DNA of 64,000 nucleotides from Geovibrio ferrireducens. Its GTDB lineage: Bacteria; Chrysiogenota; Deferribacteres; Deferribacterales; Geovibrionaceae. The stretch is from contig NZ_JAJAPB010000001.1 in the NCBI RefSeq assembly GCF_026226615.1, forward strand, positions 124,001-188,000. Reading direction: 5' to 3'. The position numbers and the translations under genes were made by a program. A model generated the notes under the pieces. It saw nothing but the letters and a program-made list of their open reading frames with translations, had not been told where the DNA came from and did not search any database. Shown one piece after another: positions 20,988 through 29,697 of the stretch. How positions within the stretch are numbered: position 1 is the first letter of the stretch; each line of letters starts with the position of its first letter.

Positions 20988-21599
20988 ATGAACGGAAAAC
21001 CCAGAGAATGCAACACCGACCTCCTTATGGTTTATAAATATTTCTCACATAACATACGCACCTCAACCTCAACCATTGTTGCGATGATGGAGGCGGTGAA
21101 GGACGGGTTTGACGATGATACGGGCGAAATGATGGAGCTTGTGGCGCAGTCGGGCTTTCTGCTTGACCTTTTTGACCGCGGCATGAGCGCCACTTTCAGA
21201 TATATAATCGCGGACGAAATAGAAAAACGTGACGATGAAATTGAAATCGGCAAGCTCACAGAACACCTTCTGGAAAAAACATGCGTTCTCAGCGAAACAC
21301 CGGAAACAGATCTGGAGCTTGACATAGACAGTGATTTCAAGGTCAGAAATAACGCTTACCTGCTGAAAAGCATTTTTCTTATAATACTTTATGAAGCTGT
21401 CAAAACCTCATCAGGCAAACTGGAGATAAAAGGAAAACTCCCCCTTCTCTCCATAAAATGCAGTAACGGATTTACCGGCTTTCCGGAAATTATACAAATT
21501 TTCTCCGAAATGTTTAAAAAAGTCGGTATAGTATTAGAATATGACTCAAATTCCATATCCATGAGGTTTGACTATGAAAATCTTGATTGCAGACGATGA
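20988..21599 (+). CDS. Histidine-kinase-like protein with degenerate ATPase domain (possible phosphotransferase)
   Basis: A 203-residue protein. The start resembles a histidine-kinase dimerisation helix: YFSHNIRTSTSTIVAMMEAV with a candidate phospho-acceptor His21. The rest is the right size for a kinase ATPase domain, but the N-box aligns only as LIILYEAVKTS, and I see no DxGxG or GxGxG glycine boxes, so ATP binding seems lost. This is the layout of ChpT-type histidine phosphotransferases. AAGGAG lies upstream of the ATG. The last 26 nt overlap the response-regulator gene, so the receiver next door is the obvious partner. An upstream kinase would have to be elsewhere. Confidence 0.6.
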   Translation: MNGKPRECNTDLLMVYKYFSHNIRTSTSTIVAMMEAVKDGFDDDTGEMMELVAQSGFLLDLFDRGMSATFRYIIADEIEKRDDEIEIGKLTEHLLEKTCVLSETPETDLELDIDSDFKVRNNAYLLKSIFLIILYEAVKTSSGKLEIKGKLPLLSIKCSNGFTGFPEIIQIFSEMFKKVGIVLEYDSNSISMRFDYENLDCRR

Positions 21600-21936
21600 G
21601 CTGCGGCTGCGAAAGGTGGTTGCTCTTCATCTGAAAAAAGCGGGCTTTGCCGTTCTGGAGGCGGGAAACGGCAGGCAGGCTCTGGAAATGGCAAAGGAGC
21701 AGAAGCCTGACGTGATTGTTCTGGATATTATGATGCCGGAAATGAACGGACTGGAAGCCTGTGAAGCGCTCAAAGCCGACCCGGAGCTTAAGGATGTGCC
21801 TGTTATTCTCCTCACTGCCATGGCGGAAGCAGGAGACATAGAGAAAGGCGGAGCCGCAGGGGCGGAGTATTACCTTACTAAGCCTTTCAGCCCGAAAGAG
21901 CTGATAGACAAGATAAACAGCAACTTCAAAAACTGA
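21574..21936 (+). CDS. CheY-like single-domain response regulator
   Basis: A 120-residue receiver domain with the acidic pair ADDE (residues 6-9), phospho-acceptor Asp51 in VIVLDIMMPEMNG, Thr in ILLTAMA and Lys in YYLTKPFSP, so it looks fully functional. No output domain is attached. ATG 21574 follows GAGG by 7 nt; the TTG two codons earlier is less likely. The gene begins inside the preceding kinase-like gene and is followed 16 nt later by an HDOD gene, which makes it the likely phosphate carrier of this operon. Confidence 0.93.
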   Translation: MKILIADDELRLRKVVALHLKKAGFAVLEAGNGRQALEMAKEQKPDVIVLDIMMPEMNGLEACEALKADPELKDVPVILLTAMAEAGDIEKGGAAGAEYYLTKPFSPKELIDKINSNFKN

Positions 21937-21952
21937 GAAGGAGCCGCAGACC

Positions 21953-23053
21953 TTGAAAAAAATAGCTTACAGAGGCTCAAAGGACAACCTGAAGCAGTTT
22001 CTGCTCCTGCTGAAAGACGAATGCCAGTTCGTGCAGGAGGGGGATGAGGATTTGCTCATTATAGAGATAGACAGCCTTGAAACCCTATTCAAACTGCCGA
22101 AAAAGTTCAGCGTTCCGTCCTTTTTCTTCATAACTACAAAAGACAGACGGGTGGTGGAATCTATCCGTCAGTATTATATTTCAGGTATTTTCACCCCGCC
22201 GCTCAAAAAGGAGGATGTGCTGAAAAAGCTCTCCGTGTCTATGGCCTCCACCAACAAAGGCCGCAGCAGCGGCGAGCTTGACACACTCAAGGCCAAGGTT
22301 CTCGCCAAGGCGGAAAGCATACCCGCCCTGCCCGCACTGGCTAAGGAACTTCTCCGTCTTTCCAGAAGCGACAACTCGCAGATCAAGGACTTCATAGTAA
22401 AAATCAAAAAAGATCAGGGGATCTCCTCTAAAATCATAAAGCTTGTCAATTCGCCCTTTTACGGACTCAGGCAGGAAATAAGCAGCATAGACCGCGCCAC
22501 GGTTCTGCTGGGGATAAACACTGTGAAGAACCTTGCCCTCGCGGTCTCCACTGAGGGTTACTACAACAAGCATTTCAACCTCTACAAGTCCACCGGGCAG
22601 GGCATATGGGAACACTCAGTGGCTGTGGCCATGCTTTCCGAATCACTGGCGGAAATGCTGGGCGAGGATGCGGACGCGCTTTACCTCGCCGGGCTGATGC
22701 ATGACATCGGCAAGTCGATCCTTGTGGACTTCCTTGTGCAGGAAGTGGACACAACGGAAGACGAACTCGCGCAGCTCGGCATAGACCATTCCACTGTGGG
22801 CGGAACAGTCCTCAAAAAGTGGGCAGTGGCGGACAGCATAGCTACAGCCGTTATGAACCACCATGATAAAGCGGAAGACACGTACTCCAAAATAGTTTAT
22901 TACGCCAACAAAATAGAAAGACACAGAGATTTAAGGCAGGAGATAATAGGCGAAATAGCTCAGGACTTCGGCAGGAGCTATGACGATGTGCACTCCGCCG
23001 TAGCCGAAATTTTAGATACAAAAACGGATGAAATGAATGCTGATACTCAATAA
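21953..23053 (+). CDS. Pseudo-receiver plus HDOD domain signalling protein
   Basis: A 366-residue protein. Residues 1-100 look like a receiver without its phosphorylation aspartate (SVPSFFFITTKDRRVVESIR, YYISGIFTPPLKKEDVLKKL). Residues about 120-330 form an HDOD domain (PALPALAKELLRLSRSDNSQ, LVNSPFYGLRQEISSIDRAT, VLLGINTVKNLALAVS). It keeps LAGLMHDIGKSIL and MNHHDKA, so metal binding is possible. The start is TTG with AAGGAG about 9 nt upstream and no better in-frame ATG nearby. It overlaps the phosphatase gene by 17 nt. Confidence 0.85.
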   Translation: MKKIAYRGSKDNLKQFLLLLKDECQFVQEGDEDLLIIEIDSLETLFKLPKKFSVPSFFFITTKDRRVVESIRQYYISGIFTPPLKKEDVLKKLSVSMASTNKGRSSGELDTLKAKVLAKAESIPALPALAKELLRLSRSDNSQIKDFIVKIKKDQGISSKIIKLVNSPFYGLRQEISSIDRATVLLGINTVKNLALAVSTEGYYNKHFNLYKSTGQGIWEHSVAVAMLSESLAEMLGEDADALYLAGLMHDIGKSILVDFLVQEVDTTEDELAQLGIDHSTVGGTVLKKWAVADSIATAVMNHHDKAEDTYSKIVYYANKIERHRDLRQEIIGEIAQDFGRSYDDVHSAVAEILDTKTDEMNADTQ

Positions 23054-24608
23054 ACAGCTTTTTGACACTTTCTTTTCCCAGAGTACAAACGAGTTTTTCA
23101 CAAGGCTGTACAATTTTCTCGAATCTGAAGAATCCGGCGCATTCACCATATGGAAGTGCGAAGGAAACCTCTGTGAGGCTGTCTCAGGCAGACATTCACG
23201 CTCGTCTGCCACGTTTGATATTTTTGACCTCGGCTATGAAGGCGCGGCGGTTTCGGAAAACAGCAAAAGCGTGGATTTTTTCGATGAAACAATCAATCTG
23301 GACTCCTCCTTTTTCCTTGAAAGCAGAGGTAACGTGATGGCATGTATCACCTTTCATGAGGAAGCAGGGAAGGATGCCCTCACCATGCTTGAACCCTACT
23401 CCCAGTATCTGGGCAGCAGGCTGGACGAACTCAGAGCCCGCGACAGCAGCCTGAGTACCTATGTCAACTACCAGAAGAAGATAGACTTTGTGAAAAAAGG
23501 GAGCATGATCTTCAAGGCGATAGAGCTTGAAGAGGTGCTGGCGGTTTCGCTCAACTTCTTCATGGAGGTCTTCTCCGCTGAGGCAGCATGTGCAATCCAC
23601 AAGGATAACTTTAATGCAATCGGGCTGGAGGAAATATCAGTCCGTGAGCTTATCAGAATAAATGGCATACCCCTGTACGACTATGTGATGGAAAACCGCC
23701 GGACGGAATTCATCGAATACGGCATAGACGCAGGTGAATTCAATATAAAAAACCTGTTTGTGGTGTTTGAGCCAGCGCAGGATATTGTTATCCTGCTGTT
23801 CAACATCCAGTTCGATATAGTGCCGGACAAGGAATTTTCTGACATAGTATCATCAATAGTTTCCATCGCCGTGGAAAACGCCCTGAACCACGAAACCATG
23901 ACCCGCCTCAAGATGGAGGAGATGGAGATGCGCACCACGGGCGATATACTGAATAAATTTGTTCAGCGTGACGTGCGTGTTTACGGCGATGTGGAGATTC
24001 AGGGGATAAGCTACCCAGCCAGAACCGCCGGGGGCGACTTCTTCTACATCTGCGATGTCAGCGGCAGAACCTTCTTCTGTGTTGCGGATGTCTGCGGCAA
24101 GGGGTACTCGGCAGCGGTGTTCACTGTTGTCTTAAGCGTTTATGTTTCCCTCTGCTCCGCTTTTGAAGGGCATGAGAAGGTGCTTGAGAAGCTTGTGGAG
24201 TCCCTCAACAGGTTTCTCATAGGCAAAAGCTTCGGAGACCGCTTCATCACTGCCTTTTTTGCCCTGTATGATCCGGAGCGGAAAACACTGGACTATATCT
24301 CCTGCGGGCATGAACCTGCCGTCCTTTTCAAAGGGGAAAAGCAGGAACTTTCCTCAGGCTTTCTCCCGCTCGGCATAATAGAGGATGAGTACAGGCAGAC
24401 AGCCGTCAGCATTCCTTCCGGTTCCTCGCTTTTCATTTACACCGACGGGGTAATTGAGTACACCCCCCACGAAAAGCTTGTACCGGAGGTGGAAAAGCTG
24501 ATAAAAGATGATTGCAAAGACATAGTTAATAACCTATATAACGAACTTGTAACGGATAAGGACTCCCAGAAGGACGACTTCACCTGCATGTTCGTCCGTT
24601 TCAGATAA
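23037..24608 (+). CDS. SpoIIE/RsbU-type PP2C serine phosphatase with N-terminal sensory region
   Basis: A 523-residue protein. The C-terminal PP2C-SpoIIE domain (from about residue 315) shows GDVEIQGISYPARTAGGDFF, CVADVCGKGYSAAVF, FITAFFALYDPE, LDYISCGHEPAVL and IYTDGVIEY, including the metal-binding aspartates. The N-terminal 300 residues are not clearly a named domain, but part (about 155-290) may be GAF-like. Such phosphatases usually dephosphorylate an STAS anti-sigma antagonist; no STAS or anti-sigma gene lies nearby. It is the last gene of a four-gene overlapping operon with the receiver and HDOD proteins, which should control it. Confidence 0.85.
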   Translation: MLILNKQLFDTFFSQSTNEFFTRLYNFLESEESGAFTIWKCEGNLCEAVSGRHSRSSATFDIFDLGYEGAAVSENSKSVDFFDETINLDSSFFLESRGNVMACITFHEEAGKDALTMLEPYSQYLGSRLDELRARDSSLSTYVNYQKKIDFVKKGSMIFKAIELEEVLAVSLNFFMEVFSAEAACAIHKDNFNAIGLEEISVRELIRINGIPLYDYVMENRRTEFIEYGIDAGEFNIKNLFVVFEPAQDIVILLFNIQFDIVPDKEFSDIVSSIVSIAVENALNHETMTRLKMEEMEMRTTGDILNKFVQRDVRVYGDVEIQGISYPARTAGGDFFYICDVSGRTFFCVADVCGKGYSAAVFTVVLSVYVSLCSAFEGHEKVLEKLVESLNRFLIGKSFGDRFITAFFALYDPERKTLDYISCGHEPAVLFKGEKQELSSGFLPLGIIEDEYRQTAVSIPSGSSLFIYTDGVIEYTPHEKLVPEVEKLIKDDCKDIVNNLYNELVTDKDSQKDDFTCMFVRFR

Positions 24609-24612
24609 ACCG

Positions 24613-25311
24613 ATGAATAAGGACTTGATCTTGGAAAAAAAATCAAAAGACATTCAGCAGATGTTCGATGACATAGCCCCTAAATACGACTTTCTCAACC
24701 GTGCCCTGAGCTTCCGCACGGATGTCGCATGGCGCAAAAAAGCAATCAGGCTTATGAACGTTCAGGACGGGCAGACCGTGCTCGATCTCGCCTGCGGCAC
24801 TGCGGACATGATGATAGAGCTCACAAAAACAGGCAAGAACGTAACCCTCATCGGCGGTGATTTCAGCCATAACATGATGAAGATAGGCAAGCAGAAGATG
24901 CCCGGAGGCATATTCAGCGTCAGTGATGCGCACTGTCTGCCGTTTAAGGATAAATCCTTCGACCGTATAATGATAGCCTTCGGCTTCCGCAACGTAACGG
25001 ACAAGGCGCAGGGGTTAAGGGAAATGCACCGTGTGCTTAAGGACGGCGGATGCGCGTGCATACTTGAGTTCAGCCAGCCGCAGAACCCCTTCTTCGCATG
25101 GGTTTACAGGCTGTATTTCACCAAAATCCTCCCTTTCATAGGCGGCATTATCTCCGGCAACAGGAAGGCATATGAATATCTGCCTGAGTCTGTCTACAAA
25201 TTTCCGAAGAGAGATGCCTACCGCATAATGATCCTTGAAGCGGGCTTCAAAGAAGCGGAGTTCAACCCCTTCACCTTCGGGATCTGTGACGCCACAATCT
25301 GCCGCAAATAG
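24613..25311 (+). CDS. ubiE: Demethylmenaquinone/ubiquinone C-methyltransferase
   Basis: A 232-residue SAM-dependent methyltransferase for the last quinone C-methylation. The start IQQMFDDIAPKYDFLNRALSF is the UbiE/MenG hallmark; SAM motif VLDLACGTADMMIELT, then FRNVTDKAQGLREMHRVLK and GGCACILEFSQP follow. The end FNPFTFGICDATICRK matches the family (…GIxxIHxGxK-like tail). It starts 4 nt after the phosphatase stop with no clear ribosome-binding site, so it may be translated by coupling. An anaerobe would use it for menaquinone. Confidence 0.94.
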   Translation: MNKDLILEKKSKDIQQMFDDIAPKYDFLNRALSFRTDVAWRKKAIRLMNVQDGQTVLDLACGTADMMIELTKTGKNVTLIGGDFSHNMMKIGKQKMPGGIFSVSDAHCLPFKDKSFDRIMIAFGFRNVTDKAQGLREMHRVLKDGGCACILEFSQPQNPFFAWVYRLYFTKILPFIGGIISGNRKAYEYLPESVYKFPKRDAYRIMILEAGFKEAEFNPFTFGICDATICRK

Positions 25312-25324
25312 CAAGGCTCACAGT

Positions 25325-26590
25325 ATGGAGCGGGATTCTTTCAGGGCTTATCTCACTCATCTCTCAGAAACGGGCAGGCTGGAGACAGCGTCCGAACCTG
25401 TTTCATGCGACCTTGAAGCGGCTGAAATCGCCAGACGCGCCGTCGGCAGGTGTGCCCTTCTGTTTAAAAACCCATCCGGCGCTGCCTTTTCCCTTGTTAT
25501 GAACGCCTTTTGCTCAAAGTCCGCAGTCATGGAATCCATCGGCATAAACTCCGTTCATGAAGCACCGGACTGTCTCCTTGAGGAAACCCTTCCCGGACAG
25601 TTCAGACCGCAGGCAGTCAGCAGCCCCGGTTTCAGATATAAAGAATTTTCAGACCTCACCTCACTGCCCGCCATACGCACATGGAAAAATGACGGCGGCT
25701 TCGCCCTCACCCTCCCCTGTGTGATCACAAAGGATAAAACCCAGAACTGCGGCATGTACCGCGTACAGATACTTGATGAAAGGCGCGCTGTTATCCACTG
25801 TTATCCCGGCAGCGGAGCGGCGGAGCATATGCGGCTCGCCGGGGAGCGGGGGGAAGAGAGCATTGAAGCCGCGATATGCCTCGGTGCGCCGCCGTCAGTA
25901 ATGCTCGCCTCGGTAATGCCGGTTAAGGCGGACGAGTTTGAAATATCAGCCGCACTGACAGGCAGACCTCTGAAAACTGCTGATATTAAAGAACTGAGCG
26001 TTCCTGCGGATTCCGAAATAGTGCTTCACGGCAAAATCTCCCTCACGGAGACGGCAACGGAAGGCCCCTTCGGGAACTACACTGGCGGCTATTCCGCACA
26101 GGAGGCTTTCCCCGTTTTTACTCTTGAAAAGGCGTACCACGCAGAAAATGCATTTTGTCCCAATACCGCAGCCGGGGCTCCCTCTGCCGAGAACGGCCTT
26201 CTGGCGGATGCGGCTTTCAGGCTCCTCACAAACTCCGTAAAACGCACTATGCCGGAGCTTGTGTCATTCGGGTTTCCGCCCTTCGGCGTGTTCGGACGGA
26301 TGATCTTCATCGCCCTCAAAGACGGTGCGGATATAAACAGGGCAGCGGATAATTTCCTTTTCCGCAAATACGCAAACATCTGCATTTTCGATGAAAAAAC
26401 GGACACGGAGGACACTGCCGAATGCCTCCGGCTTTTTGCAGGAAGCAGGCTAGTTAATTGTGAACAAAACAGAATTTTTGACTGTAGACTAAAAGATACA
26501 CTCCGCATTTCAACAGATGAAGCCATAATAAAAAAGGTTGAAGAAAACGCATACGGATTCGGGGAATGGATAAAAAGAAAACCGCTTTAA
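25325..26590 (+). CDS. UbiD-family decarboxylase
   Basis: A 421-residue protein of the UbiD family, which uses prenylated FMN to (de)carboxylate aromatic or unsaturated acids. Visible family motifs are FRAYLTHLSETGRLETAS near the start, CGMYRVQILDERRAVIH and TEGPFGNYTGGY. With ubiE upstream, a quinone-precursor decarboxylase is the likely role. No UbiX flavin prenyltransferase is in the window. I chose ATG 25325, 14 nt after ubiE, because the long frame overlapping ubiE lacks homologous sequence. The 3' end overlaps nth by 25 nt. Confidence 0.85.
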   Translation: MERDSFRAYLTHLSETGRLETASEPVSCDLEAAEIARRAVGRCALLFKNPSGAAFSLVMNAFCSKSAVMESIGINSVHEAPDCLLEETLPGQFRPQAVSSPGFRYKEFSDLTSLPAIRTWKNDGGFALTLPCVITKDKTQNCGMYRVQILDERRAVIHCYPGSGAAEHMRLAGERGEESIEAAICLGAPPSVMLASVMPVKADEFEISAALTGRPLKTADIKELSVPADSEIVLHGKISLTETATEGPFGNYTGGYSAQEAFPVFTLEKAYHAENAFCPNTAAGAPSAENGLLADAAFRLLTNSVKRTMPELVSFGFPPFGVFGRMIFIALKDGADINRAADNFLFRKYANICIFDEKTDTEDTAECLRLFAGSRLVNCEQNRIFDCRLKDTLRISTDEAIIKKVEENAYGFGEWIKRKPL

Positions 26591-27864: not shown

Positions 27865-27915
27865 AATGATTTATACGGATATTATTTCCGTGAATCTTCA
27901 TGTGCAGGTGTGCGG

Positions 27916-29697
27916 ATGCTTCCTCAACATTGGAAAGAGTATTTGTCAAAAGTAGAGCATGCATTTCAGCCCATAGTAAACCCATTTTCCGGCGTGACAT
28001 TCGCCGTGGAGGCGCTGCTGCGCGGCTGGGAGAAATGCGGTTTTGACTCCATAGCAGAATTTTTTGACACAGCCTTCAGGGAGAACCTTCTGTTTCAGGT
28101 GGACCTGGAACTCAGGCGAAAGGCCATGATGAAGTTCCGCACCATAGAGGGCTCCCGCAAGATGAAGCTCTTCTATAACTACGACATCCGCATTGTAAAC
28201 ATGCCCGACTTTGAGAAGGGGCGCACCAAGGCGCTGCTGAACGCAAACGACATTGAGCCTGATGCCTTCTGCTTTGAAATATCCGAACGCCACAAGCACA
28301 GCTTCATAAAGAACACCAAAAATATTTTCGAAAACGTGAAGCAGTACGGATGCCGCATAGCTATAGACGACTTCGGCGCAGGCTTCGCCAATTTCGAACT
28401 TTTCTACTATTCAGAGCCTAATTTCCTCAAGATAGACAAATTCCTTATTCAGGGGATAGACGAGGACATCAAGAAAAAGAAATACTGCAGCAACCTCACC
28501 AGTCTTGCCCATTTCTTCGGCATAACCATAGTGGCAGAAGGTGTGGAGACCAAGAAGGAGTTCCTCACCTGCAAGGAGCTGGGGTTCGACCTTATTCAGG
28601 GTTACTTCATACAGAAGCCCTCAACGGATGTCAAAGAGATCATGCCCGTCTACAACTCGGTTCAGTACATAGACCAGACGGACAAACGCGACCTCAGCGA
28701 GGATGCCTACCTCATATCAAACGAAATAGTGAAGCTAAACGCAGTGAACGTCAGCGAATCCGCCGAACGTGTTCTGGAGAACATACGCAACCATATGAAC
28801 GTGCCCATAGTGCCGATAGTGGACGATACCGATATGCCGCTGGGGATAATAAGCGAGCGCAACCTCAAGGAATACCTTTACCACCCCTTCGGTAAGGAGC
28901 TTCTCCATAACAGATCCCTCACGGTAAACATACGCAAGTTCATCACCTCATGCCCGATAGTTGAAATAAACGTGCCCATCGAAAAGATACTTGAGCTTTT
29001 CGTGGCGAACAAGGAAACGGACGGGGTAATAATCACCAAAGGGCTGAAATACTTCGGCTTTCTCACTGCCCAGTCTCTCCTTAACACCCTGAACGAAAAG
29101 AACCTCGCCTTCGCCCGCGATATGAACCCTCTGACCAAGCTTTCAGGCAATAGCCTGATAAACGGCTACCTGAACGATGCTTTCAGGGATGAGCACAGCC
29201 AGTACTTCCTTGTGTATTTCGACTTTGACAACTTCAAGCCGTTCAACGACCGATTCGGCTTCCGTCAGGGGGACAGGGCTATTGTTCTCTTCTCGGATAT
29301 TCTCAAGAAGGATTTCAGCGGCAAAAACGAGTTCATAGGCCATGTCGGCGGGGATGATTTCTTCGGCGGCATAAGCTGCAACGGAATGGCCTGCTCCCTC
29401 GCTGTTGACAAAATCAGAAAAACCATCAAGAAGTTCACTGATTCTGTAATATCCTTCTACTCCCCCTCTGAGGTGAAGCAGGGTTACTACACAGGCAAGG
29501 ACAGGCAGGGAAATGACTCGGTATTTCCCCTTCTGAGCATAAGCGCCGCCATTATAGAGCTTCCTGCCGGCAGAAGGGAGCATACGCCGGATGAGATAGC
29601 GAACATTCTGGCGGAACTGAAAAAGAAAGCCAAGGCATCGGAAGAAAAAATAGCCGTTGCCTCCATAAGCGAAGCACTGGCGGAAACTGCCCGCTGA
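27916..29697 (+). CDS. EAL-CBS-GGDEF cyclic-di-GMP protein
   Basis: A 593-residue cytoplasmic protein. The EAL domain (about residues 15-245) keeps EALLRG, DDFGAGF (about 151), LKIDKF and VAEGVETKKE, so phosphodiesterase activity is expected. A CBS pair (about 258-378) may bind adenine nucleotides (VPIVPIVDDTDMPLGIISER). The C-terminal GGDEF domain (about 398-548) has GGDDF instead of GGDEF, with Asp for Glu; many proteins of this architecture share this. No transmembrane segment is present. ATG 27916 follows AGGTG by 5 nt, better than GTG 27910. It is transcribed alone. Confidence 0.92.
   Translation: MLPQHWKEYLSKVEHAFQPIVNPFSGVTFAVEALLRGWEKCGFDSIAEFFDTAFRENLLFQVDLELRRKAMMKFRTIEGSRKMKLFYNYDIRIVNMPDFEKGRTKALLNANDIEPDAFCFEISERHKHSFIKNTKNIFENVKQYGCRIAIDDFGAGFANFELFYYSEPNFLKIDKFLIQGIDEDIKKKKYCSNLTSLAHFFGITIVAEGVETKKEFLTCKELGFDLIQGYFIQKPSTDVKEIMPVYNSVQYIDQTDKRDLSEDAYLISNEIVKLNAVNVSESAERVLENIRNHMNVPIVPIVDDTDMPLGIISERNLKEYLYHPFGKELLHNRSLTVNIRKFITSCPIVEINVPIEKILELFVANKETDGVIITKGLKYFGFLTAQSLLNTLNEKNLAFARDMNPLTKLSGNSLINGYLNDAFRDEHSQYFLVYFDFDNFKPFNDRFGFRQGDRAIVLFSDILKKDFSGKNEFIGHVGGDDFFGGISCNGMACSLAVDKIRKTIKKFTDSVISFYSPSEVKQGYYTGKDRQGNDSVFPLLSISAAIIELPAGRREHTPDEIANILAELKKKAKASEEKIAVASISEALAETAR

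Follow-up and report, generated by a model that had tools for sequence, protein, structure and literature searches.

An order-wide signalling operon of Deferribacterales with a kinase-derived receiver partner, an HDOD protein and a PP2C-type phosphatase

In Pseudomonas aeruginosa, the HptB-HsbR-HsbA system joins two-component input to a PP2C-STAS partner switch in which phosphorylated HsbR dephosphorylates HsbA and FliA is thereby freed (PMC6482189), while in Mycobacterium smegmatis RsfSR places a PP2C phosphatase that acts on an anti-sigma antagonist under two-component control (PMC10950880). A degenerate kinase paired with a single-domain receiver is known from the PhyT-SdrG-PhyR system of Sphingomonas melonis (PMC5898713), and ChpT of Caulobacter consists of a DHp domain and an ATPase-like domain that was seen to be free of ATP (PMC3433190). 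Aspartate-less receivers are highly associated with HDOD domains, in a role given there as unknown (PMC4395418); the mechanism of HDOD domains is itself described as not established, and the HDOD proteins SadB and GsmR have been tied to motility (PMC6543031). Here we describe an operon in a 64,000-nt stretch of Geovibrio ferrireducens (contig NZ_JAJAPB010000001.1, positions 124,001–188,000), hereafter the window, whose four genes encode a kinase-derived protein (P1), a CheY-like receiver (P2), a receiver-like domain fused to HDOD (P3) and a SpoIIE/PP2C-type phosphatase (P4).

The four genes form a genuine signalling module, which is found across the order and is under purifying selection. Among 50 genomes of the phylum, a true P1 is found in 34 (35 with any match, the extra one being a weak match in a long frame of G041, which lies outside the order). 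The order P1–P2–P3–P4–ubiE is complete at every one of the 20 loci retrieved with wide flanks, from seven families (at one of them, L057, P1 was placed by profile search and position), so that chance is excluded. P2 follows P1 on the same strand at 34 of 34 loci and P3 follows P2 at 33, the remaining locus ending at a contig end. No relative was seen in which the genes are present but unlinked, although some relatives are without part of them. In the window, P1 and P2 overlap by 26 bp, P2 and P3 are separated by 16 bp, and P3 and P4 overlap by 17 bp. The single signalling unit of the original prediction, all four genes of which lie on the plus strand where it had placed them (Table 1), is thus borne out by conserved gene order. 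Within the genus, the ratio of nonsynonymous to synonymous substitution rates (dN/dS) is 0.02–0.08 across all four genes, and therefore none of them is a decaying gene. A profile scan of genome contigs with P1, run with one narrow pattern, gave 8 loci, the titles of which in every case name Deferribacterales, Deferribacteraceae, Denitrovibrio or Seleniivibrio; since the scan rested on that one pattern, P1 may also occur in other phyla.

Natural deletions divide the operon in two ways. In genus g15, P3–P4 lie between a HIT gene and, where the contig continues, ubiE, without P1 and P2 (G033, G034 and G044), and in a further g15 genome (G038) P3 is present and P4 is interrupted by a contig end. 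The best receivers in these four genomes are only 36–38% identical to P2, which indicates that P2 was lost rather than moved. Genus g8 (G015) keeps P2–P3, with the P2 pocket intact, without P1 and P4. In G022 (64% complete), P2 lies where a contig ends and P3 is partial, and no P1, P3 or P4 orthologue was found in G013 and G020 (both 99% complete). In the loci read, P1 occurs only with P2, and operon-type P2 and P4 only with P3, which is present in both partial operons. As judged from gene content, P3 is therefore the hub of the module, and P1, without which P2 persists, is an accessory to P2.

Our preferred reading, held at slightly less than even confidence, is that the operon forms the input half of a two-component-controlled partner switch on motility, in which P1 would set the amount of phosphorylated P2 and a STAS protein encoded beside a YcgR-type gene would be the P4 substrate. 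From domain content, residue pattern, linkage, gene-loss pattern, P4–STAS co-occurrence and YcgR adjacency, taken from sequences and predicted models, we infer the directions of phosphate flow, the contacts among P2, P3 and P4 and the sign of each step as follows. A histidine kinase encoded elsewhere would phosphorylate P2, and P1 would limit the level of phosphorylated P2, most likely by dephosphorylation and perhaps by drawing phosphate through its His. Active P2 would engage P3, whose HDOD domain would serve as a scaffold, and P3, the gene of which overlaps that of P4, would turn the phosphatase up or down. P4 would then strip a Ser-phosphate from a stand-alone STAS protein, encoded elsewhere and usually beside a YcgR-type flagellar brake, so that the signal would run from an unlinked kinase through P2, P3 and P4 to STAS and on to YcgR or the motor.

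P1 has the build of a kinase core without kinase chemistry. No Pfam family, HATPase_c included, is found in P1 at E ≤ 1, and no HATPase match appears in 20 P1 members at E ≤ 0.1; NCBIfam returns weak PhoR kinase matches (best 3.5e-4, residues 20–147). A profile of the 20 proteins also reaches long open frames of the phylum at E 1e-6 to 1e-3, and kinase motifs are present in two of these frames from the window's genome; against PDB sequences the profile finds five kinases at E 0.05–0.43 and one RNA polymerase subunit at 0.56. The predicted structure, made from nine sequences with a predicted local distance difference test score (pLDDT) of 86.4 and a predicted template modelling score (pTM) of 0.85, has helices at residues 5–38 and 47–75 and an alpha/beta domain, and Foldseek ranks kinase cores and DivL first (E 8e-8). 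VIA-align places P1 on whole kinase cores over almost its full length, with Z ~12 and a root-mean-square deviation (rmsd) of 3.6–3.7 over ~190 residues for HK853 chains (6rh8_A, 5uht_A), and with Z 12.8 and rmsd 4.9 over 194 residues for DivL (4q20_B). At rank 45 stands 4fpp_A ('Bacterial phosphotransferase'), which we take to be ChpT, with Z 11.0 and rmsd 3.5 over 167 residues. These Z values of 11–13 are in the tool's warning range, where a match possibly reflects a mere common arrangement of helical proteins, which counts against the fold evidence; the sequence evidence points the same way as the fold matches, to a protein derived from a kinase. The HK853 chains have ~237 residues in the region aligned, so that P1 is short of a considerable piece, presumably the ATP lid and G2 region. 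The modelled fold has the DHp hairpin and the Bergerat-like domain, here presumably non-ATP-binding, of ChpT-type proteins, the likeness that the original prediction had suggested looking for, and a ChpT-type family sequence profile matches neither P1 nor the 20 P1 members.

The residues that distinguish kinase from phosphatase chemistry were compared across 34 P1 proteins, among them that of the window. The canonical phosphorylatable His is kept in 32 of them, with Phe in G014 and Arg in G028 (both of family f4). The next residue is acidic in none (Asn in 24, His in 10), Arg stands at His+3 in all 34, and His+4 is Thr in 32 and Asn in two; the position aligned with the second N-box Asn of HK853 is Glu throughout. 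Two kinases of the window's genome keep HE..RT and N...NAxK. At L027 and L028, the loci of two f4 genomes, the H-box has Arg or Phe at the phosphorylatable position, with the next residue a His and position +4 an Asn. For those HisKA kinases that were tested, the acid at +1 is needed solely for the kinase reaction and the Thr or Asn solely for the phosphatase reaction (PMC3510030). Given these roles and the residue pattern, P1 retains, by its sequence, the residues for dephosphorylation without those for autophosphorylation. Of the features of a HisKA kinase, it has the phosphorylatable His and neither the acidic +1 residue nor a HATPase_c domain with its N-box Asn. An intact kinase is ruled out by the Pfam result, the residue pattern and the N-box, and a decaying pseudogene by a dN/dS of ~0.08. 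The claim that P1 is kinase-like and keeps the His helix without an ATPase therefore survives the profile search, in which no intact ATPase domain came to light, and the invariant Glu at the N-box.

Whether P1 instead passes phosphate on has to be weighed against the same residues. If it were a genuine relay protein of the ChpT or PhyT kind, P1 would take phosphate on its His from the receiver of an unlinked hybrid kinase or from phosphorylated P2, and hand it to P2 or to another regulator; we regard this as unlikely, if a serious contender. It would fit the 4fpp_A match and the near-constant His, and PhyT-SdrG offers the example of a degenerate kinase that exchanges phosphate with a single-domain receiver (PMC5898713). 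However, the P2 pocket is kept in g8 without P1, so that P1 is not the sole phosphate source there, the His gives way to Phe or Arg in G014 and G028 while +4 is Asn, and no hybrid kinase is found among eight window proteins scanned. The phosphotransferase feeding a receiver that had been proposed is possible and is not the reading we prefer: a phosphatase fits the residues at least as well, and both g8, where P2–P3 are kept without P1, and the two f4 genomes, where the His is lost, count against a phosphotransferase. The same two f4 genomes are also a point against our preferred reading.

P4 is a SpoIIE-type phosphatase, as had been predicted for the fourth gene, and could supply this component of a PP2C/STAS partner switch. 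Its orthologues occur across the order, and in most genomes the match spans almost the full length of P4. No linked STAS or anti-sigma gene is present among the eight proteins of the window scanned by Pfam. The earlier statement that a STAS target is missing holds for the operon itself but not for the genome, in which a search for STAS proteins gave 8 matches and in which one STAS family follows the distribution of P4. We compared 36 stand-alone STAS proteins with a phospho-site motif from 12 genomes and the window's, unfetched or motif-less matches being left out. Reciprocal-best linking merged several families into a group of 19, and one family is distinct by identity: its linked member pairs are at least 42% identical (93% within g15), against at most ~36% to other STAS proteins. 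Its member in the window's genome (C2:111705-112052) carries the motif YLNSSGL (NSSG). In this comparison set the family is present in eight P4-holding genomes and the window's, and it is not found in G013, G020 or G015. In G005, a second STAS gene lies directly behind the family member (L201:1061-1827).

Across the phylum, we took E ≤ 2e-24 with identity of at least 47% as an orthologue of this STAS family (the next matches being second copies, in G028 at 2.6e-24 and in G005 at 1.1e-18) and E ≤ 1e-79, plus the partial G038, as an orthologue of P4, both thresholds being set after the gap in scores was seen. In the 39 genomes that are at least 90% complete, 32 have both genes, 7 have neither and none is discordant; of the other 11, five have both, two P4 only, one STAS only and three neither. 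The most telling case is g8, which lost P4 and this STAS jointly yet keeps P2–P3, while g15 lost P1–P2 yet keeps P4 and STAS. Other STAS families are found in genomes without P4. The target missing from the operon is probably, on this co-occurrence, the STAS protein encoded elsewhere in the genome.

Several observations weigh against this assignment. The three discordant genomes are G027 (88% complete) and G031 (73%), with P4 and without the STAS gene, and G021 (88%), with STAS and without P4; the absence from G027, already seen in the comparison set, makes this g6 genome a possible counter-example, and G049 (86%), counted with those that have neither gene, is without P4 and shows STAS as a short fragment where a contig ends. 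Because the genomes are related, the co-occurrence amounts to few independent events, roughly two joint losses (g6 and g8) plus outgroups with neither gene. At none of the loci read is the STAS gene linked to P4, and among the HATPase_c_2 proteins of the window's genome (15 matches, many in long frames) none was identified as its Ser kinase. It is accordingly conceivable, though somewhat unlikely in our view, that P4 acts on another STAS or on a different phosphoprotein and that the co-occurrence is merely shared descent in one order, as the unlinked positions, the few independent losses and the three discordant cases among 11 incomplete genomes would allow. Against this, G015 of g8 is without P4 and without this STAS gene though P2–P3 and other STAS genes remain, and each of two g15 genomes scanned has two stand-alone STAS proteins, of which the one outside the family adjoins another SpoIIE gene.

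Other loci hold possible partner-switch components. A 281-residue protein with a C-terminal HATPase_c_2 domain and an N-terminal part without assignment (L118:4997-5842) is a candidate Ser kinase for a STAS protein. At L119:3943-5900, a REC-SpoIIE-HATPase_c_2 protein of HsbR-like layout is followed by a protein of 100 aa without a Pfam match, which could be its STAS-like partner. A PAS-SpoIIE gene, a STAS gene, a STAS-HEAT gene and an apparent CheR-like gene lie in a row near a CheA-like gene (L112:3201-7354), with similar clusters in G015 (L143) and G049 (L145); this chemosensory STAS was rejected as a P4 target, as it adjoins its own PAS-SpoIIE and has relatives in genomes without P4.

The surroundings of the candidate STAS gene point to the flagellum. 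In the window's genome its neighbour encodes a PilZNR-PilZ protein of the YcgR type (3e-23 and 2.7e-13), and a YcgR/PilZ-like gene adjoins STAS in 24 of the 30 loci fetched, plus G025 (L183), with the STAS family present in 38 genomes overall; Pfam was run on three of these neighbours. CheR lies on the other side of STAS in five loci scanned, chosen from f2, f7 and f8, and an RlmN-like gene is found in the flanks of 20 of the 30. The six loci without a YcgR neighbour, a point against our preferred reading, belong to the four g15 genomes, in which P1 is absent, and to G014 and G028, in which P1 is without its His; the 24 with YcgR beside STAS are exactly the 24 genomes, of those 30 loci, whose P1 keeps the His, a match noticed afterwards that amounts to two lineages and concerns adjacency only, YcgR elsewhere in the six genomes not having been sought. 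FliG is absent from four genomes, and the two near-complete ones (G013 and G020) are also without P1, P3, P4 and the YcgR-linked STAS. The genomes of g8, f9 and f10, on the other hand, carry FliG although the full operon is missing, so the operon is not needed for flagella and flagella cannot be its sole reason. The operon output is probably flagellar motility, as far as gene content can indicate, and YcgR is, by adjacency, a candidate output of the switch. More specifically, though we consider this rather doubtful, a kinase-derived phosphatase (P1) and an HDOD scaffold might drive a PP2C-STAS switch that acts on the flagellar motor and not on a sigma factor, with STAS binding or freeing the adjacent YcgR-type brake according to its phosphorylation state. 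Were the motor-output reading true, a single circuit would join phosphorelay, serine phosphorylation and cyclic di-GMP at the motor, and partner switching would reach, by way of STAS and YcgR, beyond transcription to the flagellar motor.

The domains at the centre of the operon are of mixed integrity. P2 is an intact CheY-like receiver, as predicted, that keeps the Asp, Thr and Lys of the pocket in a 21-row alignment, Thr being Ser in one row. Rather than acting on P2 by phosphate chemistry, P1 might bind without catalysis, either to sequester P2 or to sense a ligand through what remains of the P1 CA domain. The two f4 members without the canonical His and the constancy of Glu136, Asp60 and Asp63 in 34 of 34 proteins, none of them presumably a catalytic kinase residue, would suit such a role, which is nonetheless improbable given how strongly the active-site pattern is kept (His in 32 of 34, Arg at +3 and Thr or Asn at +4 in all). 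P3 residues 1–105 adopt a receiver fold in the model (Z 10.5–11.7 over 97–105 residues; 4lda_D, Z 11.7, rmsd 2.3 over 97) with no Response_reg (PF00072) match at E ≤ 1. Of 21 rows read by eye, 17 have Glu where the phospho-Asp would stand and 4 have Ser, Ala or Val; most rows have Pro at the Lys position, with Lys kept in L053. The predicted pseudo-receiver is therefore recovered as an aspartate-less receiver fused to an HDOD domain. The HDOD part is modelled poorly (overall pLDDT 69), a further weakness of our preferred scheme, and its match to 3m1t (Z 12.9, rmsd 4.8 over 164 residues) falls in this low-confidence part. It is very improbable that P3 works as a catalytically active HD phosphohydrolase, with a cyclic dinucleotide as one conceivable substrate, and that the operon is chiefly a second-messenger enzyme plus its regulators: H221, H250-D251, H279 and H303-H304 are invariant in nine sequences and an HD domain also matches (4.8e-17), but the position that we take for the last HD metal ligand is Asn319. 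HDOD domains are, moreover, reported without HD-GYP phosphodiesterase activity (PMC6543031). The description of the operon as made largely of degenerate modules accordingly fits the ATPase-like part of P1 and the N-terminal part of P3, but not P2, HDOD and the P4 phosphatase domain, which match their profiles.

Table 1. Coordinates of the operon, its domains and the adjoining methyltransferase gene, in window positions.
Feature	Position	Strand	Evidence
P1: stand-alone DHp + degenerate CA protein, kinase-derived, 203 aa	20988..21599	+	Without ATPase profile match
P1 H-box, residues 21-25 (H-N-I-R-T)	21048..21062	+	His and Thr +4 retained; Asn in place of acidic +1
P2: single-domain CheY-like receiver, 120 aa, ATG start	21574..21936	+	Response_reg (PF00072) 2.9e-31
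P3: Asp-less receiver-like domain fused to HDOD, 366 aa, TTG start	21953..23053	+	HDOD 2.6e-43
P3 pseudo-receiver part, residues 1-105	21953..22267	+	Fold match to receivers
P3 HDOD domain, residues 123-305	22319..22867	+	PF08668 2.6e-43
P4: SpoIIE/PP2C-type phosphatase, 523 aa, catalytic domain residues 343-522	23037..24608	+	SpoIIE (PF07228) 7.7e-33
ubiE/menG methyltransferase; linked neighbour of P4	24613..25311	+	PF01209 2.4e-63

Downstream, ubiE/menG begins 4 bp after the end of P4 and lies directly behind it in 20 of 20 relative loci and in one g15 genome (L107), so this menaquinone-type methyltransferase gene seems fixed to the signalling operon. The UbiD-family protein that follows (25235-26590) is ~27–31% identical to the UbiD proteins at the same place in other genera and 74–77% identical within the genus, while its neighbours ubiE and nth show 48–76% identity in the comparison where UbiD shows ~27–31%; the gene was possibly replaced in situ. 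A few genes downstream of P4, an EAL-CBS-GGDEF protein of 595 aa (27910-29697) places a cyclic di-GMP gene near an operon whose probable STAS partner adjoins a PilZ protein.

The natural deletions split the HDOD module into the minimal pairs P2–P3 and P3–P4, which offer a direct test of whether, as one possible role, an HDOD protein connects a receiver with a protein phosphatase. The P1 family shows cleanly how a kinase core can become a partner dedicated to a receiver, and its 34 proteins show the residues that are kept.

No description of the four-gene operon or of a STAS-YcgR switch was found among the best matches in the open-access literature, which agrees with the view that the arrangement is not a described system; HptB-HsbR-HsbA and RsfSR are nevertheless partial precedents. 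P1 resembles ChpT in fold and differs from it in having no ChpT-type Pfam match and in being tied to its receiver within an operon. The H-box +1 residue of ChpT is reportedly Asp, whereas that of P1 is Asn or His. With HptB-HsbR-HsbA the operon shares a phosphotransferase-type input, a receiver, a PP2C phosphatase, a STAS-type antagonist (we take HsbA to be a STAS protein) and a flagellar output, predicted here. There are also differences: HptB is an Hpt protein and P1 is derived from a kinase; HsbR combines receiver, PP2C and kinase/anti-sigma parts in one polypeptide, whereas receiver, HDOD scaffold and phosphatase are here separate, with P2 and P4 encoded by distinct genes; and the STAS gene adjoins YcgR, with no FlgM link known. 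RsfSR differs in its active kinase, in the fusion of receiver and phosphatase and in its sigma factor output (PMC10950880). The membrane-bound PhyT feeds PhyR, a protein that binds the anti-sigma factor NepR, and the part of that description drawn on here mentions neither HDOD nor PP2C (PMC5898713). The architecture of P3 is that of the aspartate-less receivers with HDOD, for which the part used likewise mentions no link with both a separate receiver and a PP2C phosphatase (PMC4395418). The operon works like HptB-HsbR-HsbA, RsfSR and PhyT-SdrG and is a member of none of them, since it has no fused REC-PP2C protein, no active kinase and no PhyR output. As such, it is a variant of two-component-driven partner switching that is new in its kinase-derived accessory and its HDOD hub.

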